Shown: piece after piece, positions 12,381 to 19,425 of the stretch | Layout of the letters: every line of letters begins with the position of its first letter | How positions within the stretch are numbered: position 1 is the stretch's first letter | Notes under the pieces: model-generated | Databases searched by the model: none | Seen by the model: the letters and a program-made list of their open reading frames with translations, nothing else | What the model was told of the DNA's origin: nothing | Position numbers and translations under genes: made by a program | Assembly (NCBI GenBank): GCA_027313705.1 | Contig: DAHVDE010000115.1 | Span: 124,001 to 188,000, forward strand | Source of the DNA: Actinomycetota bacterium | GTDB taxonomy: Bacteria; Actinomycetota; Actinomycetes; Streptosporangiales; Streptosporangiaceae | Length of the DNA: 64,000 nt | Direction of reading: 5' to 3'

Positions 12381-14210
12381 TCAGTCATGAGAACCGGCTC
12401 GTGGTCGCAGGAACTTCACCGGAATGTCGGCTTGGGTGGCCCGCAACTCCTCGCCTAGGGCCTTGGCCTGTGGGTCGAGCCTGGTGCTGGCGGCAACTCC
12501 GCGGCCAAGCAAGCCGACGACCACGAAGTTCAGCGCGAGCAGGTTGGGCAGGGCGAAGCGCTCGACCCGCAGCCCTGCCACGCACGGCAAGAGCTCAGAT
12601 AGCCGATCTTGGGTGAGATAGCTGTCTAGCCAGTCGAATTCGGCTTGGGTGCGCACCCAGACACCCAGGTTGGCGTTGCCGCCCTTGTCGCCGGAACGGG
12701 CTCCGGCGACAAGCCCGAGTGGCGCCCGGATCGTATCCGGTCCAATCGCCTGCATGTGCTCCTCCGGCGCCGCGACCTCCGGCAGCCGGACGGCCCGCAT
12801 TTGCGCGCCCCGTGCTTGCGCGGATTCGGGTTGCGACGCCAGTGGCTGCGCTGCGCTGCCAGTGCGGGCCGGCGTTGCCCGCGGCGGCCCGGTCCAGACT
12901 GATTCTGAGCCGATGATGACAGTACTGGTCACCAAGTCGGCGGGGATGCTCGTGGGCCAGAAGACTCCGTACGCTGAGCCTTCGCCAGGCGGAGATAGCG
13001 CGTAGAAGCCGGGATAACTGGCCAGCGCGGTCTCCACGACAGCGGCAGAGAAGGCCCGGCCGACCTTGGTCTTGTCCTGATCGAGCACGGAGATCCTGAG
13101 CAGGACCGGGTCGCTGCCGATCAGGTCGACATCCACGGTCTCGAAGCTGCGCTTGCCGCCCTCGATTCTGGCCCAGATTATCTGCTCGGCGAGTGCTGCC
13201 TTGGCCGCTGGGTCAAGCCCTTCCAGAACGAGGACCATGGAATTCCTGAAGCCGCCTGCGTAGTTCAGCGAGACCTTGAGGTCGGGCGGCGGCGGTTCGC
13301 CGCGTACGCCGCTGATCAGAACCCGGTCGGGTCCTGCCTGCTCGAGGCGGATCGTGTCGAACCTGGCGACAACGTCGGGGTTCAGATACCTCGGAGAGCC
13401 GATCTCGTACAACAGCTGGGCCGTCACCGTGCCGGTGCTGACCAGGCCGCCAGTGCCCGGGTGCTTGGTGATCACGGCCGAGCCGTCGGCGGCCAGTTCG
13501 GCCAGCGGGAATCCGGCGTGCGCCAGGTCGGGAACCTCGTCGTAAAACGAGTAGTTGCCGCCAGTCGCCTGGCAGCCGCATTCAAGCACGTGACCGGTCA
13601 CGACGGCCCCGGCAAGCGCGTCCAGGTCATCACCAGTCCAGCCAAACCGCCACATTCCCGGCCCGACGACCAGGGCAGCGTCGGTCACCCGGCCGGTGAT
13701 GACGATATCCGCCCCCGCCGACAGCGCAGCCGCGATCGGCAGCCCGCCGAGATAGGCGTGAGCGGTCAGCGGCGTGACTTTGGCTTGCGTGAGCGGCTGG
13801 CCAGTGTCGGTGTTTGCGAGCTGGTGCCCTTCCGACAGCAGGCTCGCCATCCTGGGCATCAGGTCGTCGCCCGTGACGTAGGCGATCACCGGCGAGACCC
13901 CGGCTCGCCTGGCAATCTCGGCGGCAGCGGCCGCGCAGCCTGCCGGGTCGAGTCCGCCGGCATTGGTAACCACCTTGATACCGCGCTCGACGCAGGCAGG
14001 CAGTACCTGTTCTAGCTGGGAGATGAACGTGCGCGGGTAGCCCGGCCGCCCGGCGAGCATCGCCTTGCCGAGCAGGAGCATGGTGAGTTCAGCCAGCCAG
14101 TCGCCGGTCAGCACGTCGATTGGCCCGCCGTCCACCATCTCGCGCGCCGCTGACAGCCGGTCGCCGTAGAACCCGCTGCAGTTCGCGATCCTCAGCACGG
14201 GCTCAGGCAT
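12381..14210 (-). CDS. AtuA-family (DUF1446) protein with C-terminal ferredoxin-fold domain
   Basis: This 609-residue protein belongs to the family named after AtuA of acyclic terpene utilisation in Pseudomonas. The N-terminus RIANCSGFYGDRLSAAREMV and TNAGGLDPAGCA are family blocks. The last 110 residues (from APLGLVAGARSGDKGGNANLGVWV) form the AtuA-like ferredoxin-fold domain found at the C-terminus of such proteins. Its biochemical role is not established. The ATG at 14210 overlaps the enoyl-CoA hydratase stop (TGATG); an ATG at 14219 is also in frame. It is the last gene of a four-gene coupled operon with an acyl-CoA carboxylase, suggesting action on a branched or terpenoid acyl-CoA. Confidence 0.88.
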   Translation of the reverse strand: MPEPVLRIANCSGFYGDRLSAAREMVDGGPIDVLTGDWLAELTMLLLGKAMLAGRPGYPRTFISQLEQVLPACVERGIKVVTNAGGLDPAGCAAAAAEIARRAGVSPVIAYVTGDDLMPRMASLLSEGHQLANTDTGQPLTQAKVTPLTAHAYLGGLPIAAALSAGADIVITGRVTDAALVVGPGMWRFGWTGDDLDALAGAVVTGHVLECGCQATGGNYSFYDEVPDLAHAGFPLAELAADGSAVITKHPGTGGLVSTGTVTAQLLYEIGSPRYLNPDVVARFDTIRLEQAGPDRVLISGVRGEPPPPDLKVSLNYAGGFRNSMVLVLEGLDPAAKAALAEQIIWARIEGGKRSFETVDVDLIGSDPVLLRISVLDQDKTKVGRAFSAAVVETALASYPGFYALSPPGEGSAYGVFWPTSIPADLVTSTVIIGSESVWTGPPRATPARTGSAAQPLASQPESAQARGAQMRAVRLPEVAAPEEHMQAIGPDTIRAPLGLVAGARSGDKGGNANLGVWVRTQAEFDWLDSYLTQDRLSELLPCVAGLRVERFALPNLLALNFVVVGLLGRGVAASTRLDPQAKALGEELRATQADIPVKFLRPRAGSHD

Positions 14211-15004
14211 CAGGTCCATTCCCCTGCTGCGGGAACCCAGGAAGGATCCCGTTTGGCCGCGAAAGCGGCGCGCCCCTCGACCGCGTCCGCCGAGGCAAAG
14301 AAGTCGGCCGACAAGCGAGACATCGCGGCGAGTCCGCAAGCGAAGGTGTCAGAAACTCCGGCCCTGAGCAACTCCTTGGTGGCCGCCAGCGCGGTCGGCG
14401 CCCCCCGTAGCAAGGATGTCGTGTACTTGCCTGTCTCCTCATCTAGCTCCTCGGCGGCGACGGCCCTGCTGAGCAGTCCGATGTCGACCGCTCGCCTCGC
14501 GTCGAATACCTCGCCGGTGAGAAAGTACTCGGCGGCCGCGCGCGACGGCATCCGGCGAAGACAAGGGACCGAGATCACCGCTGGCACCACGCCGATCCGG
14601 ACCTCGGAGAAGGCGAAGGTTGCCTTGTCCGCGCCGAGCGCGATGTCGCAGGCCGCCACCAGCCCGATGCCGCCGGCCCGCGCTGCGCCGTTCACGCGGC
14701 AGACCACCGGCTTGCTGGCATCCCAGAGCGTCTGTATCACATCGGCCATCAGCGGTGCGGCTGCCTTAGGGTTAGCAGCGGTCTCTTTCAGGTCGGCTCC
14801 GGCGCAGAAGACCTTGCCCGCGCCGGTCAGCACGATGACCCGGACGAGCGGATCGTCGAGCGCCTGGCCGAGCGCCTCGCGCAACTGGGCAAGCAGCCTG
14901 GCGGAAAGCGCGTTGGCGTTGCGCGGTGAGTCAAGCGTGATCGTGGAGACCCCGCCGCCGGTCCGGACCAGGACAAGCCGCTCGCCCGTCTTTGTCACCG
15001 TCAC
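14210..15004 (-). CDS. Enoyl-CoA hydratase/isomerase family protein
   Basis: This 264-residue crotonase-fold enzyme starts at a GTG that shares four bases (GTGA) with the carboxylase alpha stop. The oxyanion-hole regions are FCAGADLKE (about 66-74) and NGAARAGGIGLVAACDIAL (about 106-124). The expected Glu/Asp catalytic positions fall near EVRIGVVPAVIS. It probably hydrates a 2-enoyl-CoA or 3-methylglutaconyl-type CoA made by the co-transcribed carboxylase, as in leucine or isoprenoid acyl-CoA breakdown. Substrate is inferred from context only. Confidence 0.9.
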   Translation of the reverse strand: MTVTKTGERLVLVRTGGGVSTITLDSPRNANALSARLLAQLREALGQALDDPLVRVIVLTGAGKVFCAGADLKETAANPKAAAPLMADVIQTLWDASKPVVCRVNGAARAGGIGLVAACDIALGADKATFAFSEVRIGVVPAVISVPCLRRMPSRAAAEYFLTGEVFDARRAVDIGLLSRAVAAEELDEETGKYTTSLLRGAPTALAATKELLRAGVSDTFACGLAAMSRLSADFFASADAVEGRAAFAAKRDPSWVPAAGEWT

Positions 15005-16965
15005 TCCTGATCGCTAGAGACGACCGCCAGGACGTCGCCCGCATGCACCTGGGTGCCGCGGCTCACTCTCACCTCGGTGAGCACACCGTCGGCAGGCGCA
15101 AGAACCTGATGTTCCATCTTCATGGCCTCGAGCACGAGCACAACCTGACCCGCCGTGACCTGGTCACCGGCATCCACGGCGACCGTGATGACGCTGCCAG
15201 GCATCGGTGCGATCAGCGACCCGCTCTTCGCCGCCTCTTGCGGCGCAGGCAGGCGCTCGATCAGTTCGAGCATGACCGAGCCGAACACCGAACTGACCCA
15301 GACCTGCTCGCCGGCGCGGATGACACGGAATCGGTAGCTCACGCCTTCGACGTCAAGGCGTACTTCCCCGGTTCTGGCGCCTTCGACCAGCCTGGCGGCC
15401 GGCTGCTCGAAGGCGATCATTGCACCGTCCCACCGGTAGGCGACATCAAGCCGGCCGCCCGGCCCGGAAAATGACCTGCGCTGCGGCTGGCTCCGCACAT
15501 TGCGCCAGCCACCGGGAATCGACTTCGCTGCCGTTGCGTCCCGCCGGTTCGCCAGCGCGATTACGGCGGCGGCCGCGGCGGCCGACAGTTCGCAAGTTCG
15601 CTGGCCGGGAACGAGTCCGCCGTAGTCGTAGCCTTCGAGCAGCGAGGTGTCCGCGCCTCCGGCGGCGAAGGCTTCGCTGCCAAGCACGCTGACCAGCAGG
15701 TCGCGATTGGTGGCAGGACCGGCGATGCTGGCGCCGGCGAGCGCGGTAACGAGCCGCCTGGTGGCCTCGTCCCTGGTCGGTGCCCAGACGATGAGCTTGC
15801 CGAGCATGGCATCGTAGTGCGTGCTTATGACGCTTCCTGCCGCCACGCCCGCATCAAGTCGCAGAGTCGCGCCCGTGCCGCTGGCCAGGCCGAACTCGGT
15901 GTCGACGGCGGGCACCGCGAAGGCATGCACTCGCCCGGCGCTCGGCCGGAATCCGGCGACCGGGTCTTCCGCGTACAGCCGGGCTTCGATGGCATGCCCG
16001 GCAGGCGCGGGCGGCAGCGCGGGCAGCGGCTGCCCTTCGGCGATCCCTAGCTGCAATGCCACCAGATCGAGATCGTGCAGGCATTCTGTGACCGGGTGCT
16101 CAACCTGCAGCCTGGTGTTGAACTCGAGGAAGTAGAACTCGCCTGAGCCGCTCAGCAGGAACTCGACGGTGCCAGCGTTCACGTAGCCGACCGCCCTGGC
16201 CAGTGCTTCCGCGGCGGCAAGCAGCTGCCGCCTCAGCGGCTCCTGCACGACGGGAGACGGGGACTCCTCGATCACCTTGGCGTACCGTCGCTGCACCGAG
16301 CAGTCACGTTCGGTCAGCGTCCAGATCGTGCCGTGCTGGTCGGCGACCACCTGCACCTCTACGTGCCTGGCCCCGGTCAGCAATGGTTCGCAGAACACCG
16401 TGCCGTCGCCGAAGGCTGACCGCGCCTCGCGCTGAGCCGAGTCGATTGCCTCGGCAAGCTCGCCTGCGGAAGCGACCGCCCGCATGCCGCGGCCGCCTCC
16501 GCCTGCCGACGCCTTGACCAGCACAGGGAACCTGGTCACCGATGCTGGGTCGAGTTCGGGCAGCACCGGGACTCCGGCCGCGATGGCGGTCTTGCGTGCC
16601 TCGATCTTGAGCGCCATCGCGGCCATGGCGGCCGGCGGCGGCCCGACCCAGGTCAGGCCGGCTGACTGAACCTGCCTGGCGAATCTGTGGTCTTCGGAAA
16701 GGAACCCGTAGCCAGGGTGGATGGCGTCGGCGCCGCTAGCCAGCGCGGCAGTCACGATGGCGGCGCCGTCCAGGTAGGTCCGAGCCGAAGTCGTGCCTGG
16801 CAACCGCACCGCGAGATCGGCCTCGCCGACGTAAGGCGAGCACTCGTCAGGATCGGCGAACACGGCCACGGTACTGATCCCTGCCTGACGGCAGGTGCGC
16901 ATGACGCGGCGCGCGATCTCACCCCGGTTAGCGACGAGCAGACGGCTGATCAAAAAGGGCCTCAC
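15001..16965 (-). CDS. Acyl-CoA carboxylase alpha subunit (biotin carboxylase plus biotin carrier)
   Basis: This 654-residue subunit carboxylates its own biotin using ATP and bicarbonate. The N-terminus SRLLVANRGEIARRV opens the biotin carboxylase domain. The ATP-grasp loop KASAGGGGRGM and FLEFNTRLQVEHPVTE are intact, and EAMKM carries the biotin lysine at about residue 616. The frame is open far upstream, but the GTG at 16965 is chosen because it overlaps the beta-subunit stop as GTGA and precedes the conserved start by a few residues. Length and domain order match methylcrotonyl-, geranyl- or other acyl-CoA carboxylases; the exact substrate cannot be told. Confidence 0.92.
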   Translation of the reverse strand: MRPFLISRLLVANRGEIARRVMRTCRQAGISTVAVFADPDECSPYVGEADLAVRLPGTTSARTYLDGAAIVTAALASGADAIHPGYGFLSEDHRFARQVQSAGLTWVGPPPAAMAAMALKIEARKTAIAAGVPVLPELDPASVTRFPVLVKASAGGGGRGMRAVASAGELAEAIDSAQREARSAFGDGTVFCEPLLTGARHVEVQVVADQHGTIWTLTERDCSVQRRYAKVIEESPSPVVQEPLRRQLLAAAEALARAVGYVNAGTVEFLLSGSGEFYFLEFNTRLQVEHPVTECLHDLDLVALQLGIAEGQPLPALPPAPAGHAIEARLYAEDPVAGFRPSAGRVHAFAVPAVDTEFGLASGTGATLRLDAGVAAGSVISTHYDAMLGKLIVWAPTRDEATRRLVTALAGASIAGPATNRDLLVSVLGSEAFAAGGADTSLLEGYDYGGLVPGQRTCELSAAAAAAVIALANRRDATAAKSIPGGWRNVRSQPQRRSFSGPGGRLDVAYRWDGAMIAFEQPAARLVEGARTGEVRLDVEGVSYRFRVIRAGEQVWVSSVFGSVMLELIERLPAPQEAAKSGSLIAPMPGSVITVAVDAGDQVTAGQVVLVLEAMKMEHQVLAPADGVLTEVRVSRGTQVHAGDVLAVVSSDQE

Positions 16966-18623
16966 ATTCTGAATATGCCAAATTGCCCCGCACCGGAAGG
17001 CGAGCCTGGGCCGGCTGAGCCGATACCAGCGCCTTGCCTGACGCCTGGCCAGGCACTGTGAATGACGGCCAGGCAGAGGCCAAGCACCGACCTGGTGTCG
17101 CGCGGGTCGATCACGCCGTCGTCGTAGAGTCGCCCGGAGAGCACGAATGGCTGTGACTCGGACTCGATCTGGTCCGCCACCATCGTCCGCATGGCCGCGT
17201 CGGCTTCTTCGTCGAACGGCTCGCCGCGTGCCGCCGCCGACTGCCGCCCGACGATGGAAAGCACGCCGGCCAGTTGGGCCGGCCCCATCACGGCGGACTT
17301 CGCACTCGGCCAGGAGAACAAGAATCTCGGGTCGTAGGCGCGGCCGCACATGCCGTAGTTGCCCGCGCCGTAGGAGGCGCCCATGACGATTGTCAGGTGC
17401 GGAACCCGGCTGTTGGCCACGGCATTGATCATCATGGCGCCGTGCTTGATGATCCCTGACTGCTCATAGCTGGCGCCAACCATGTAGCCGGTGGTGTTCT
17501 GGAGGAAGAGCAACGGCACGTCGATCTGGTTGGCTAGCTGAATGAACTGGGCGGCCTTCTGCGAATCCTCGCTGAACAGCACCCCTGCGGCGTTAGCGAG
17601 GATGCCGACCGGATAACCGTGCACGACTGCCCAGCCGGTTACCAGGCTGGCGCCGTACAGCGGCTTGAACTCGTCGAACTCCGAGCCATCCGCGATCCTG
17701 GCGATCACCTCCCGCGGGTCGAACGGCACTTTCAGGTCTTCAGGCACGATGCCGAGCAGTTCCTCATTGTCATAGCGAGGCTCGGCCGGGGCGTCGCCGA
17801 CTCGCGCGGCACGCCGATCTCCCCAGTTCAGCCTGGCGACGATGGACCGGCCGATGCGCAGCGCTTCATGTTCGTCCTCGGCAAGGAAGTCGGCCAGGCC
17901 AGACTGCTTTGCGTGCATGCTGGCACCGCCGAGCGACTCGTCATCAGACTCCTCGCCGGTCGCCATCTTCACCAGTGGCGGTCCGGCCAGGAACACCTTG
18001 GACCTCCCCTCGATCATCACGACATAGTCGCTCATGCCTGGCACGTAGGCGCCGCCTGCGGTCGAGTTGCCGAAGACGAGCGCGATCGTGGGGATGCCGG
18101 CCGCCGACATGCGGGTCAGGTCACGGAAGACCTGCCCTCCGGGTATGAAGATCTCCTTTTGGGTCGGCAGGTCGGCGCCGCCTGACTCGACCAAGTTGAC
18201 CAGCGGCAGCCGGTTCTCGATCGCGATCTGCATGCCCCTGATCGACTTGCGCAGCGACCAGGGATTGGTCGATCCCCCGCGCACGGTCGGATCGCTGCCG
18301 CTGATCATGGCCAGTGTCCCTGCGACCACCCCGATGCCGTTCACGCCGCTGCCGCCGACGGGGAATCCGGTGCCGTACCCCGCCAGCGGCGACAGCTCAA
18401 GGAACGGCGAGTCGGGGTCGATCAGCAACTCGACTCGCTCGCGCACGGTCAGTTTGCCGCGATCGCGGTGCCGCTGCATGTACTTGGGCCCGCCACCGCC
18501 AATGGCCTTGGCATGCTCGGACTCGAGTTCGGCTAGCTTGCTCAGCATCGCCTTACGCCTGGCCAGGTATTGAGGACTGCCCGTGTCGAGCCTGCTGCCG
18601 AGAACTGTCACAGCAGGAACCAT
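16962..18623 (-). CDS. Acyl-CoA carboxylase beta subunit (carboxyltransferase)
   Basis: This 553-residue carboxyltransferase moves CO2 from biotin to an acyl-CoA. Family blocks are RDRGKLTVRERVELLIDP, GNSTAGGAYVPGMSDYVVMI, LLFLQNTTGYMVG and GASYGAGNYGMCGRAYDPRF. Overall features resemble methylcrotonyl-CoA or geranyl-CoA carboxylase beta subunits more than propionyl-CoA ones. It is the first gene of a four-gene operon in which every junction overlaps. The in-frame starts MVPAVTVLGS and later sites make the exact N-terminus uncertain by a few residues. Confidence 0.92.
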   Translation of the reverse strand: MVPAVTVLGSRLDTGSPQYLARRKAMLSKLAELESEHAKAIGGGGPKYMQRHRDRGKLTVRERVELLIDPDSPFLELSPLAGYGTGFPVGGSGVNGIGVVAGTLAMISGSDPTVRGGSTNPWSLRKSIRGMQIAIENRLPLVNLVESGGADLPTQKEIFIPGGQVFRDLTRMSAAGIPTIALVFGNSTAGGAYVPGMSDYVVMIEGRSKVFLAGPPLVKMATGEESDDESLGGASMHAKQSGLADFLAEDEHEALRIGRSIVARLNWGDRRAARVGDAPAEPRYDNEELLGIVPEDLKVPFDPREVIARIADGSEFDEFKPLYGASLVTGWAVVHGYPVGILANAAGVLFSEDSQKAAQFIQLANQIDVPLLFLQNTTGYMVGASYEQSGIIKHGAMMINAVANSRVPHLTIVMGASYGAGNYGMCGRAYDPRFLFSWPSAKSAVMGPAQLAGVLSIVGRQSAAARGEPFDEEADAAMRTMVADQIESESQPFVLSGRLYDDGVIDPRDTRSVLGLCLAVIHSAWPGVRQGAGIGSAGPGSPSGAGQFGIFRM

Positions 18624-18638
18624 ATGCCTACTAGGCGG

Positions 18639-19205
18639 TCAGCAGCCGTCGTAAGGCGCCCACGGCTGGGTGCCATACTGCGCGTACAGGCGATCGAAGG
18701 CCGCCTTCTGGGTGGCTACGGAAGCTCCGCCTGCGGTTCCGGGCAGCCCGAGTGACGCCCAGGTCGACGGCAGGATCCCGAACAAGCCTGACGAGGAAGC
18801 GGTCGGATTGTCGCCGCTCTCGTGCCACGCCACGCAGCGCTCGAATGCCGACATGCCGCTAAGTAGCGAGCCTGAAGAAGAGCCAGCCGCTGGTGCGGCC
18901 GGCACCGCGACTGGCTGCTGGCCGCCTGCCTGGTGAGCGCCTGCGGAGCCAGCATGGCGGCGGGCTTTGACCTGCGAGTGCTGATGGGCGCCGATCCGGT
19001 GAGTCGATGCGGGGTGACCTGGCCTCGGCCGCTTGCGCGCACTGCGGTGCGTGGCGCTGCCGGCCTGGTGGCTTGCCGCGCTGGCTGTTCGCAGGTGCGA
19101 TGGATGGCTGGTCGCCGCGCTGACGGCTACCCAGCTGGACAGACTGGTGCCGACTACTGCCACCGGCATGATTGCGGTCAGGGCGAGTTTCTTGTTGATC
19201 TTCAT
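18639..19205 (-). CDS. Secreted transglycosylase-like (Rpf-type) protein
   Basis: This 188-residue protein has a signal peptide (MKINKKLALTAIMPVAVVGT to AVSAATS). A long low-complexity Ala/His/Arg/Ser/Gly linker leads to a C-terminal lysozyme-like domain of about 75 residues. That domain reads FERCVAWHESGDNPTASSSGLFGILPSTWASLG, with Glu in WHESG as the likely catalytic acid, as in resuscitation-promoting factors and related muralytic enzymes. It ends in PWAPYDGC. The ATG at 19205 follows a C-rich stretch without a clear ribosome site; an in-frame GTG at 19268 would add 21 residues. It probably remodels peptidoglycan. Confidence 0.85.
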   Translation of the reverse strand: MKINKKLALTAIMPVAVVGTSLSSWVAVSAATSHPSHLRTASAASHQAGSATHRSARKRPRPGHPASTHRIGAHQHSQVKARRHAGSAGAHQAGGQQPVAVPAAPAAGSSSGSLLSGMSAFERCVAWHESGDNPTASSSGLFGILPSTWASLGLPGTAGGASVATQKAAFDRLYAQYGTQPWAPYDGC

Positions 19206-19425
19206 GTGGGGGGTTACCTGCCTCGTCGGCCCTCGGTAGGGGGTTGACGTCGTTGTCAGGGTCACCACCTAGAACCTCAGTCAGGAGACAGGCGCATCCA
19301 TTAACAGGCGGATTATGAGCTTTCTCACTTGCTGGCCCACCGGGAATAGCGGCTCCCGCCAAGGGGCGCAGGCGGTCAGGGGCGCGAGCCGGCGTCGGTG
19401 CTGGCCATGACTCGCGGAAAGCCTG

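Follow-up and report, generated by a model that had tools for sequence, protein, structure and literature searches.

A carboxylase, hydratase and AtuA operon that may remove beta-methyl branches, with AtuA as a candidate citramalate-lyase-like acetate lyase

Closest described systems and the four-gene locus

A 3-methyl branch blocks beta-oxidation; the Liu and Atu routes convert it into a 3-oxo group by gamma-carboxylation, addition of water and removal of a carboxymethyl group. The final step of the Liu route is carried out by 3-hydroxy-3-methylglutaryl-CoA (HMG-CoA) lyase. Here we analyzed an operon of four genes, encoding the beta and alpha subunits of an acyl-CoA carboxylase, an enoyl-CoA hydratase and AtuA, in a 64 kb stretch of an Actinomycetota draft genome (assembly GCA_027313705.1, contig DAHVDE010000115.1, positions 124,001 to 188,000); this whole stretch is called the window. 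We propose, with a probability of about 0.6, that the substrate of the operon is a 3-methyl-2-enoyl-CoA of greater size than methylcrotonyl-CoA and that its products are a 3-oxoacyl-CoA and acetate, AtuA acting as a single-chain, citramalate-lyase-like acetate lyase. The proposal is based on gene content, gene coupling, the pocket residues of the carboxylase, the fold match of AtuA to both citramalate lyase subunits, and gene neighbourhoods that do not overlap.

The acyclic terpene utilization cluster of Pseudomonas (atuABCDEFGH, with AtuR) has the same core: carboxylase beta and alpha, hydratase and AtuA of the Atu pathway are all present together in the window, and the pocket of the Pseudomonas carboxylase likewise contains a glycine and no insertion (5ikl). 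However, the gene order differs, and three acyl-CoA dehydrogenase (ACAD) queries gave no match in the 64 kb of the window (tblastn, 1e-15). The dehydrogenase is therefore unlinked, in agreement with the sequence-only reading of this DNA, which had stated that the set lacks one. The Liu cluster shares the three-step logic of carboxylase, hydratase and lyase, and its carboxylase and hydratase are homologous to those of the window. It differs in having a carboxylase of the Phe/insertion class and an HMG-CoA lyase where the window operon has AtuA; no beta subunit of the methylcrotonyl-CoA carboxylase (MCC) type lay within 20 kb of AtuA in a survey of 149 genomes.

In Thauera linaloolentis, according to the passages available of PMC4847356, the carboxylase beta, alpha and hydratase genes are adjacent (atuCFE), as in the window; atuA stands apart from them and the geraniol and linalool genes are linked, whereas the four window genes overlap. 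Finally, the citramalate lyase CmlA/CmlB has been solved with ADP and pyruvate (9erq, 9evf), and the folds of both its subunits are found in the window AtuA (Z 31.3 and 10.5). Unlike CmlA/CmlB, the window AtuA is a single fused chain, at 18% identity, encoded beside a CoA-dependent carboxylase and a hydratase; its substrate is expected to be a CoA thioester. The features of the locus are as follows.

18623-16962, minus strand: carboxyltransferase beta subunit of an acyl-CoA carboxylase, 553 aa; PF01039, 461 bits; MCC and geranyl-CoA carboxylase (GCC) relatives in the PDB; subject of the pocket and tree analyses.
16965-15001, minus strand: biotin carboxylase alpha subunit of the acyl-CoA carboxylase, 654 aa, GTG start; biotin carboxylase domains, BT_MCC_alpha (PF21139) and a biotin carrier domain.
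15004-14210, minus strand: crotonase-family enoyl-CoA hydratase, 264 aa, GTG start; PF00378 (ECH_1), 184 bits.
14210-12381, minus strand: AtuA, proposed acetate-releasing lyase, 609 aa; PF07287, 515 bits, and PF23544 (AtuA_ferredoxin).
12381-12761, minus strand: C-terminal ferredoxin-like domain of AtuA, modelled separately; counterpart of 9evf chain B by fold match, and a frame of its own in split AtuAs.

The four genes and their GTGA, GTGA and TGATG overlaps, as described in the sequence-only reading, were confirmed on the minus strand of the window sequence. The GTG start of the alpha gene overlaps the beta stop codon by 4 nt (16965-16962) and the GTG start of the hydratase gene overlaps the alpha stop codon by 4 nt (15004-15001), while the hydratase/AtuA junction, TGATG, lies at 14212-14208.

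The carboxylase pocket

In the passages available of their work, Jurado and colleagues (PMC4673880) report that a glycine in GCC beta replaces the pocket phenylalanine of MCC beta, and that a three-residue insertion located just before this position in MCC is absent in GCC. The Gly/Phe swap altered the preference for geranyl- versus methylcrotonyl-CoA; wild-type GCC was very weak on 3-methylcrotonyl-CoA, and the MCC mutant F191G was essentially inactive on it. An N-terminal extension of about 30 residues, relative to the beta subunit of propionyl-CoA carboxylase, is given there as a further GCC-type criterion.

The window beta subunit was found in the GCC state, with Gly162 and without the three-residue insertion. 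The pocket stretch reads EIFIPGGQVF in the window and EIFVEGARGF in GCC, versus EVFPDREHFGRIF in MCC. Chains 3u9r, 8j4z and 4q0g carry the MCC state, Phe plus insertion; we take them to be MCC of Pseudomonas, human MCC and AccD1 of M. tuberculosis, respectively. The alignments of the window beta with PDB chains begin at residue 6 (MCC 3u9r), 8 (GCC 5ikl) and 26-30 (several propionyl-CoA carboxylases), but that with the MCC AccD1 4q0g also begins at residue 30, and local alignment ends do not settle the N-terminal extension.

The comparison was extended to 149 genomes drawn from the phylum, which gave 73 strong beta matches; 65 of these fell into two score classes, window-type (at least 770 bits, n = 26) and MCC-type (570-705 bits, n = 39). 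The pocket was counted in 124 betas, for which 20 of the 26 window-type and 20 of the 39 MCC-type rows were fetched. The residue before the conserved G-x-x-[FY] was Phe in all 20 MCC-set betas and Gly, Ala, Ser or Thr in all 90 placed rows that were AtuA-linked or window-type, these counts overlapping by two because two window-type tree rows are identical to AtuA-linked rows. The pattern left 14 rows unplaced; by eye, 12 carry one of the same four residues and two stop short of the loop. In a quick tree of the 117 loci out of 124 with a beta match, the MCC set formed one side of a branch (support 97). The window-type betas and the GCC chain 5ikl stood together (support 92, below the tool's 95 mark), with the window beta on a deep branch separate from 5ikl.

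By the published Phe/Gly and insertion criteria (PMC4673880, in the passages available), the window carboxylase does not look like a plain MCC. This makes a larger branched or terpenoid acyl-CoA the better guess; a branched or terpenoid acyl-CoA had been suggested in the sequence-only reading. A plain MCC identity was rejected on the combined grounds of pocket residues, insertion, tree and partner gene.

It was retained as an alternative, in which the operon serves as the host's MCC for leucine or isovalerate, with HMG-CoA lyase supplied in trans from another contig (C75) and AtuA accessory or dispensable. The reason is that searches of the genus detected no MCC-type beta, either in the host genome, a draft of 5.31 Mb (98.87% complete, 4.28% contamination), or in four other genomes, of which two have a completeness of just 77-81%. 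The host encodes one AtuA, four carboxyltransferases and four biotin carboxylases, and its single HMG-CoA lyase (NF004283 at 1e-30) indeed lies on C75, the operon being on contig C59; unlike a Liu cluster, the operon has no HMG-CoA lyase gene beside it. The very weak use of methylcrotonyl-CoA by GCC also speaks for this alternative, yet the same passages of PMC4673880 show how weak wild-type GCC is, and that the MCC mutant F191G is essentially inactive. Furthermore, the window protein lacks both the Phe and the insertion, which all 20 MCC-set betas as well as 3u9r, 8j4z and 4q0g possess, and 16 of the 26 window-type genomes encode an MCC-type beta in addition. A plain MCC with a dispensable AtuA is thus unlikely from the residues compared. 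The HMG-CoA lyase gene on C75 (C75:15437-17916, L041) adjoins a carboxyltransferase whose best PDB relatives are of the propionyl-CoA carboxylase type, not the MCC type.

AtuA, HMG-CoA lyase and the citramalate lyase fold

The partners of the two beta classes did not overlap. Within 20 kb on the same contig, AtuA was found beside 18 of the 26 window-type betas and HMG-CoA lyase beside none of them; HMG-CoA lyase was found beside 18 of the 39 MCC-type betas and AtuA beside none. Eight lower betas outside both classes (371-418 bits) had HMG-CoA lyase nearby in one case and AtuA in none. Fisher tests gave p values of 3e-10 for the AtuA neighbour and 1e-5 for the HMG-CoA lyase neighbour, uncorrected values that overstate the case because the genomes are related. 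Among the 18 AtuA-linked betas, one (G085) has just a fragment of AtuA where the contig ends and another (G093) has AtuA 15 kb off; draft contigs conceal some beta-AtuA links. At the level of whole genomes, AtuA was present in 24 of the 26 window-type genomes versus 4 of the 123 others, and, among 60 relatives, in 34/34 window-type genomes versus 7/26 others, some of these being weak matches.

The same separation was seen from the AtuA side. An HMG-CoA lyase query (tblastn, 1e-10) matched none of 40 AtuA loci from relatives (of the 50 non-own match rows, these 40 were taken, leaving aside weak rows and fragments) and none of 80 named loci, which are the best 80 of at least 585 AtuA-related stretches in a scan of named genomes. 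As a positive control, the query matched 10/10 MCC loci, where no AtuA was detected; these ten had been picked because the neighbourhood survey had placed HMG-CoA lyase there.

An AlphaFold2 model of AtuA, built from 24 homologues (the two family alignments comprised 24 and 19 sequences picked from the fetched loci), had a mean predicted local distance difference test score (pLDDT) of 89.9. Its single PDB match with E up to 0.001 was chain A of 9evf (Foldseek E 4.1e-18), entitled 'Citramalate lyase - ADP - pyruvate complex'. Residues 2-435 of AtuA superimposed on 9evf_A with Z 31.3 and a root mean square deviation (rmsd) of 3.4 over 407 aligned residues, the next row having Z 8.6. A profile search linked AtuA to chain A at the sequence level also (9erq, E 1.4e-4), and of the 52 positions in the aligned stretch that are invariant among AtuAs, 23 carry the same residue in 9erq. 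The last 126 residues, modelled separately (pLDDT 89.2), had 9evf_B as best match (Foldseek E 3.2e-3; Z 10.5, rmsd 2.4, 101/105 residues; next Z 6.6).

Single-domain AtuAs of 446-452 aa also exist; in all four such loci that were fetched, a separate frame, starting only a few bases from the stop codon of AtuA, encodes the C-terminal domain. Because both subunit folds match and split forms exist, the window AtuA is best read, from these models, as a fused A-B version of the citramalate lyase architecture. The sequence-only reading had held that AtuA has no known reaction and that the set lacks a lyase. A member of the family has in fact been solved as citramalate lyase (9erq/9evf), and the second statement is probably wrong, AtuA being the best candidate for the lyase with a model matching both subunits of 9evf. 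A limited literature search found no paper on the solved citramalate lyase, which does not show that none exists. The four loci with a single-domain AtuA of about 450 aa and the C-terminal domain in the next frame (L078-L081) have no carboxylase match nearby and may belong to a further AtuA subfamily that serves a different purpose.

In the proposed pathway, the substrate would be a 3-methyl-2-enoyl-CoA that exceeds 3-methylcrotonyl-CoA in size, our leading guess being a geranyl/citronellyl-type compound, and the beta/alpha carboxylase would place a carboxyl group on its gamma-methyl. The hydratase would then add water to give a 3-hydroxy-3-alkyl-glutaryl-CoA, and AtuA, as a single-chain fusion of the two citramalate lyase subunits, would release the carboxymethyl arm as free acetate, leaving a 3-oxoacyl-CoA for thiolysis. 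Citramalate, a tertiary hydroxy acid, also bears a carboxymethyl arm and is cleaved to pyruvate and acetate, as stated in the passages available of PMC4682846. By analogy, 3-hydroxy-3-isohexenylglutaryl-CoA would be the AtuA substrate, and because of this analogy we infer that AtuA expels acetate from the free carboxymethyl arm. The ADP of 9evf suggests that a nucleotide, ADP or ATP, may be involved. By cleaving in the final step, AtuA would occupy the place held by HMG-CoA lyase in the leucine (Liu) clusters, and the operon would form a self-contained module for beta-methyl removal, corresponding to what the lower half of the Atu pathway does in Pseudomonas.

Sources disagree on the acetate-releasing enzyme of the Atu pathway. 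AtuA is named acetate lyase by annotation in PMC4847356 and speculated to be one in PMC9973270, and the passages available of both show no assay; those of the review PMC4097962 assign the activity to LiuE, citing Chavez-Aviles 2010. The fold match and the non-overlapping neighbourhoods make the question directly testable with one purified protein, and this testable reaction for AtuA is the most useful result of the analysis. If the proposal is true, it assigns a reaction to a large protein family (at least 585 related stretches), and the gene block, which is widespread, becomes readable as breakdown of branched or isoprenoid acids rather than as a spare leucine pathway.

The attribution of EC 4.1.3.26 to LiuE in the review (PMC4097962) fits another explanation, in which the substrate class is the same and AtuA takes a different step, such as acyl-CoA activation, CoA transfer or product hydrolysis, the tertiary alcohol being cleaved by an unlinked enzyme of the HMG-CoA lyase type. 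Such an enzyme is available in 22 of the 26 window-type genomes, and the solved relative of AtuA binds ADP, a feature common to activating enzymes. That relative is, however, named as the lyase of an analogous tertiary hydroxy acid, at 1e-30 no HMG-CoA lyase was detected in four of the 26 genomes, and the neighbourhoods of AtuA and HMG-CoA lyase are without overlap. We regard a role of AtuA in another step as improbable, slightly more so than the leucine/isovalerate role discussed above.

Several observations weigh against the proposal. The identity between AtuA and CmlA is just 18%, and function cannot be concluded from a common fold. For the C-terminal domain, neither a single-sequence nor a profile search matched a PDB sequence, and fold searches alone give 9evf_B. 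If the assignment in the review is correct, an HMG-CoA lyase could perform the acetate-release step; moreover, since the genus has no detected MCC-type beta, the operon may have some role in leucine degradation. For eight of the 26 window-type betas, the 20 kb search detected no AtuA nearby: six of these genomes have AtuA elsewhere and two (G111 and G071, the latter with weak fragments) are without. AtuA also occurs without a window-type carboxylase and is therefore not tied to that carboxylase alone. Of the best 80 named AtuA loci, 46 have more than 8 kb on both sides; 39 of these have both carboxylase subunits and seven have neither (L103, L104, L121, L129, L132, L144 and L163), and some relatives (G030 and G050) have a strong full-length AtuA match yet no window-type beta. 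Finally, monophyly of the AtuA-linked carboxylases is unsupported, six of them grouping in the tree with the MCC set (support 86).

These six betas (L122, L133, L135, L150, L159 and L110), from Myxococcota, Thermodesulfobacteriota, SAR324 and Chloroflexota, still contain the insertion, although the Phe is replaced by Gly or Ala (L110 and L150 by eye), and an independent opening of the pocket is a possible explanation.

Distribution of the gene set and minor features

AtuA, scored as PF07287 with E up to 0.001, was present in 41 of the 60 relatives and in 29 of the 149 phylum genomes. A survey of the co-occurrence of the four genes, a check proposed along with the sequence-only reading, showed that linkage is frequent. 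In the best 80 named loci, both carboxylase subunits were encoded on the same strand within 10 kb in 56, with the hydratase in addition in 49; an acyl-CoA dehydrogenase was found in 38 and a ligase in 11. For the relatives, gene order was counted in 36 of the 40 loci, L078-L081 being set aside: 27 have both subunits, 19 the hydratase as well, and 19 an acyl-CoA dehydrogenase.

The commonest linked order is beta-alpha-hydratase-AtuA (13/80 best named loci and 9/36 relatives). This four-gene set, in this order, is present in three genomes of the genus (L057, L059 and L061), and the order recurs in loci of Myxococcota, Thermodesulfobacteriota and Chloroflexota; because of this recurrence, the operon is more than a chance arrangement. 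Planctomycetota and Pseudomonadota, which with these three phyla and Actinomycetota are represented among the best 80 named loci, have AtuA with carboxylase genes in other orders. In seven loci with the beta-alpha-hydratase-AtuA order, 10 of 21 junctions overlap and gaps range from -17 to 153 bp, values that depend on the chosen start codons.

The operon is thus a common module, not peculiar to one genome, and the description of a minimal, actinobacterial set did not hold. The sequence-only reading is partly supported overall: a branched or terpenoid acyl-CoA is the better guess and no linked dehydrogenase was found, while the absence of a lyase is probably wrong and the minimal actinobacterial set does not stand.

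A third explanation is that the carboxylase product is anabolic, or non-terpenoid (for example, an aromatic or sterol side-chain acyl-CoA), and that AtuA cleaves a different tertiary hydroxy acid. The substrate is one that we infer, and the wide taxonomic spread of the cluster, which reaches Myxococcota and Thermodesulfobacteriota, would suit this view. The same-strand dehydrogenase within 10 kb in 38/80 and ligase in 11/80 of the best named loci point instead to acyl-CoA breakdown, for which the Atu pathway provides a precedent, and we give this explanation very little weight.

A more general form of the proposal is tentative and, in our estimate, falls somewhat short of an even chance. AtuA would be a CoA-independent, nucleotide-assisted retro-aldol lyase made of fused citramalate lyase subunits, which stands in for HMG-CoA lyase next to carboxylases with an open pocket, a substitution that may have happened more than once. 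The block would then be a portable 'beta-methyl excision' module, spread across phyla, for isoprenoid and other 3-methyl-branched acids.

One genome of the genus (G002) has two AtuA-carboxylase clusters of different subfamilies (L043 and L057), and a member of the class (G052) has three window-type betas. An apparent alpha-AtuA fusion in an Acidimicrobiaceae metagenome-assembled genome (L120:4158-7781), whose frames join, was not used because of an ambiguous base at the join.

A scan for promoters and terminators gave a single site resembling each, which does not exceed what shuffled sequences yield. Pfam domains of other genes in the window were looked at in a sample of ten open reading frames (ORFs). 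A small ORF on the same strand (18639-19268, minus) stops 15 bp upstream of the beta gene; it had no Pfam match at 1e-5 and, as a query, gave zero matches in the 40 relative loci. It presumably resembles a secreted transglycosylase-type protein. A convergent ORF lies beyond the AtuA end of the operon. The start of the beta gene is ambiguous, GTG 18611 matching the consensus of relatives (M.VL.S.LDT) better than ATG 18623. In the hydratase, two glutamates align with glutamates of the solved dehydratase 5zai, which we take to be the catalytic pair of crotonases.

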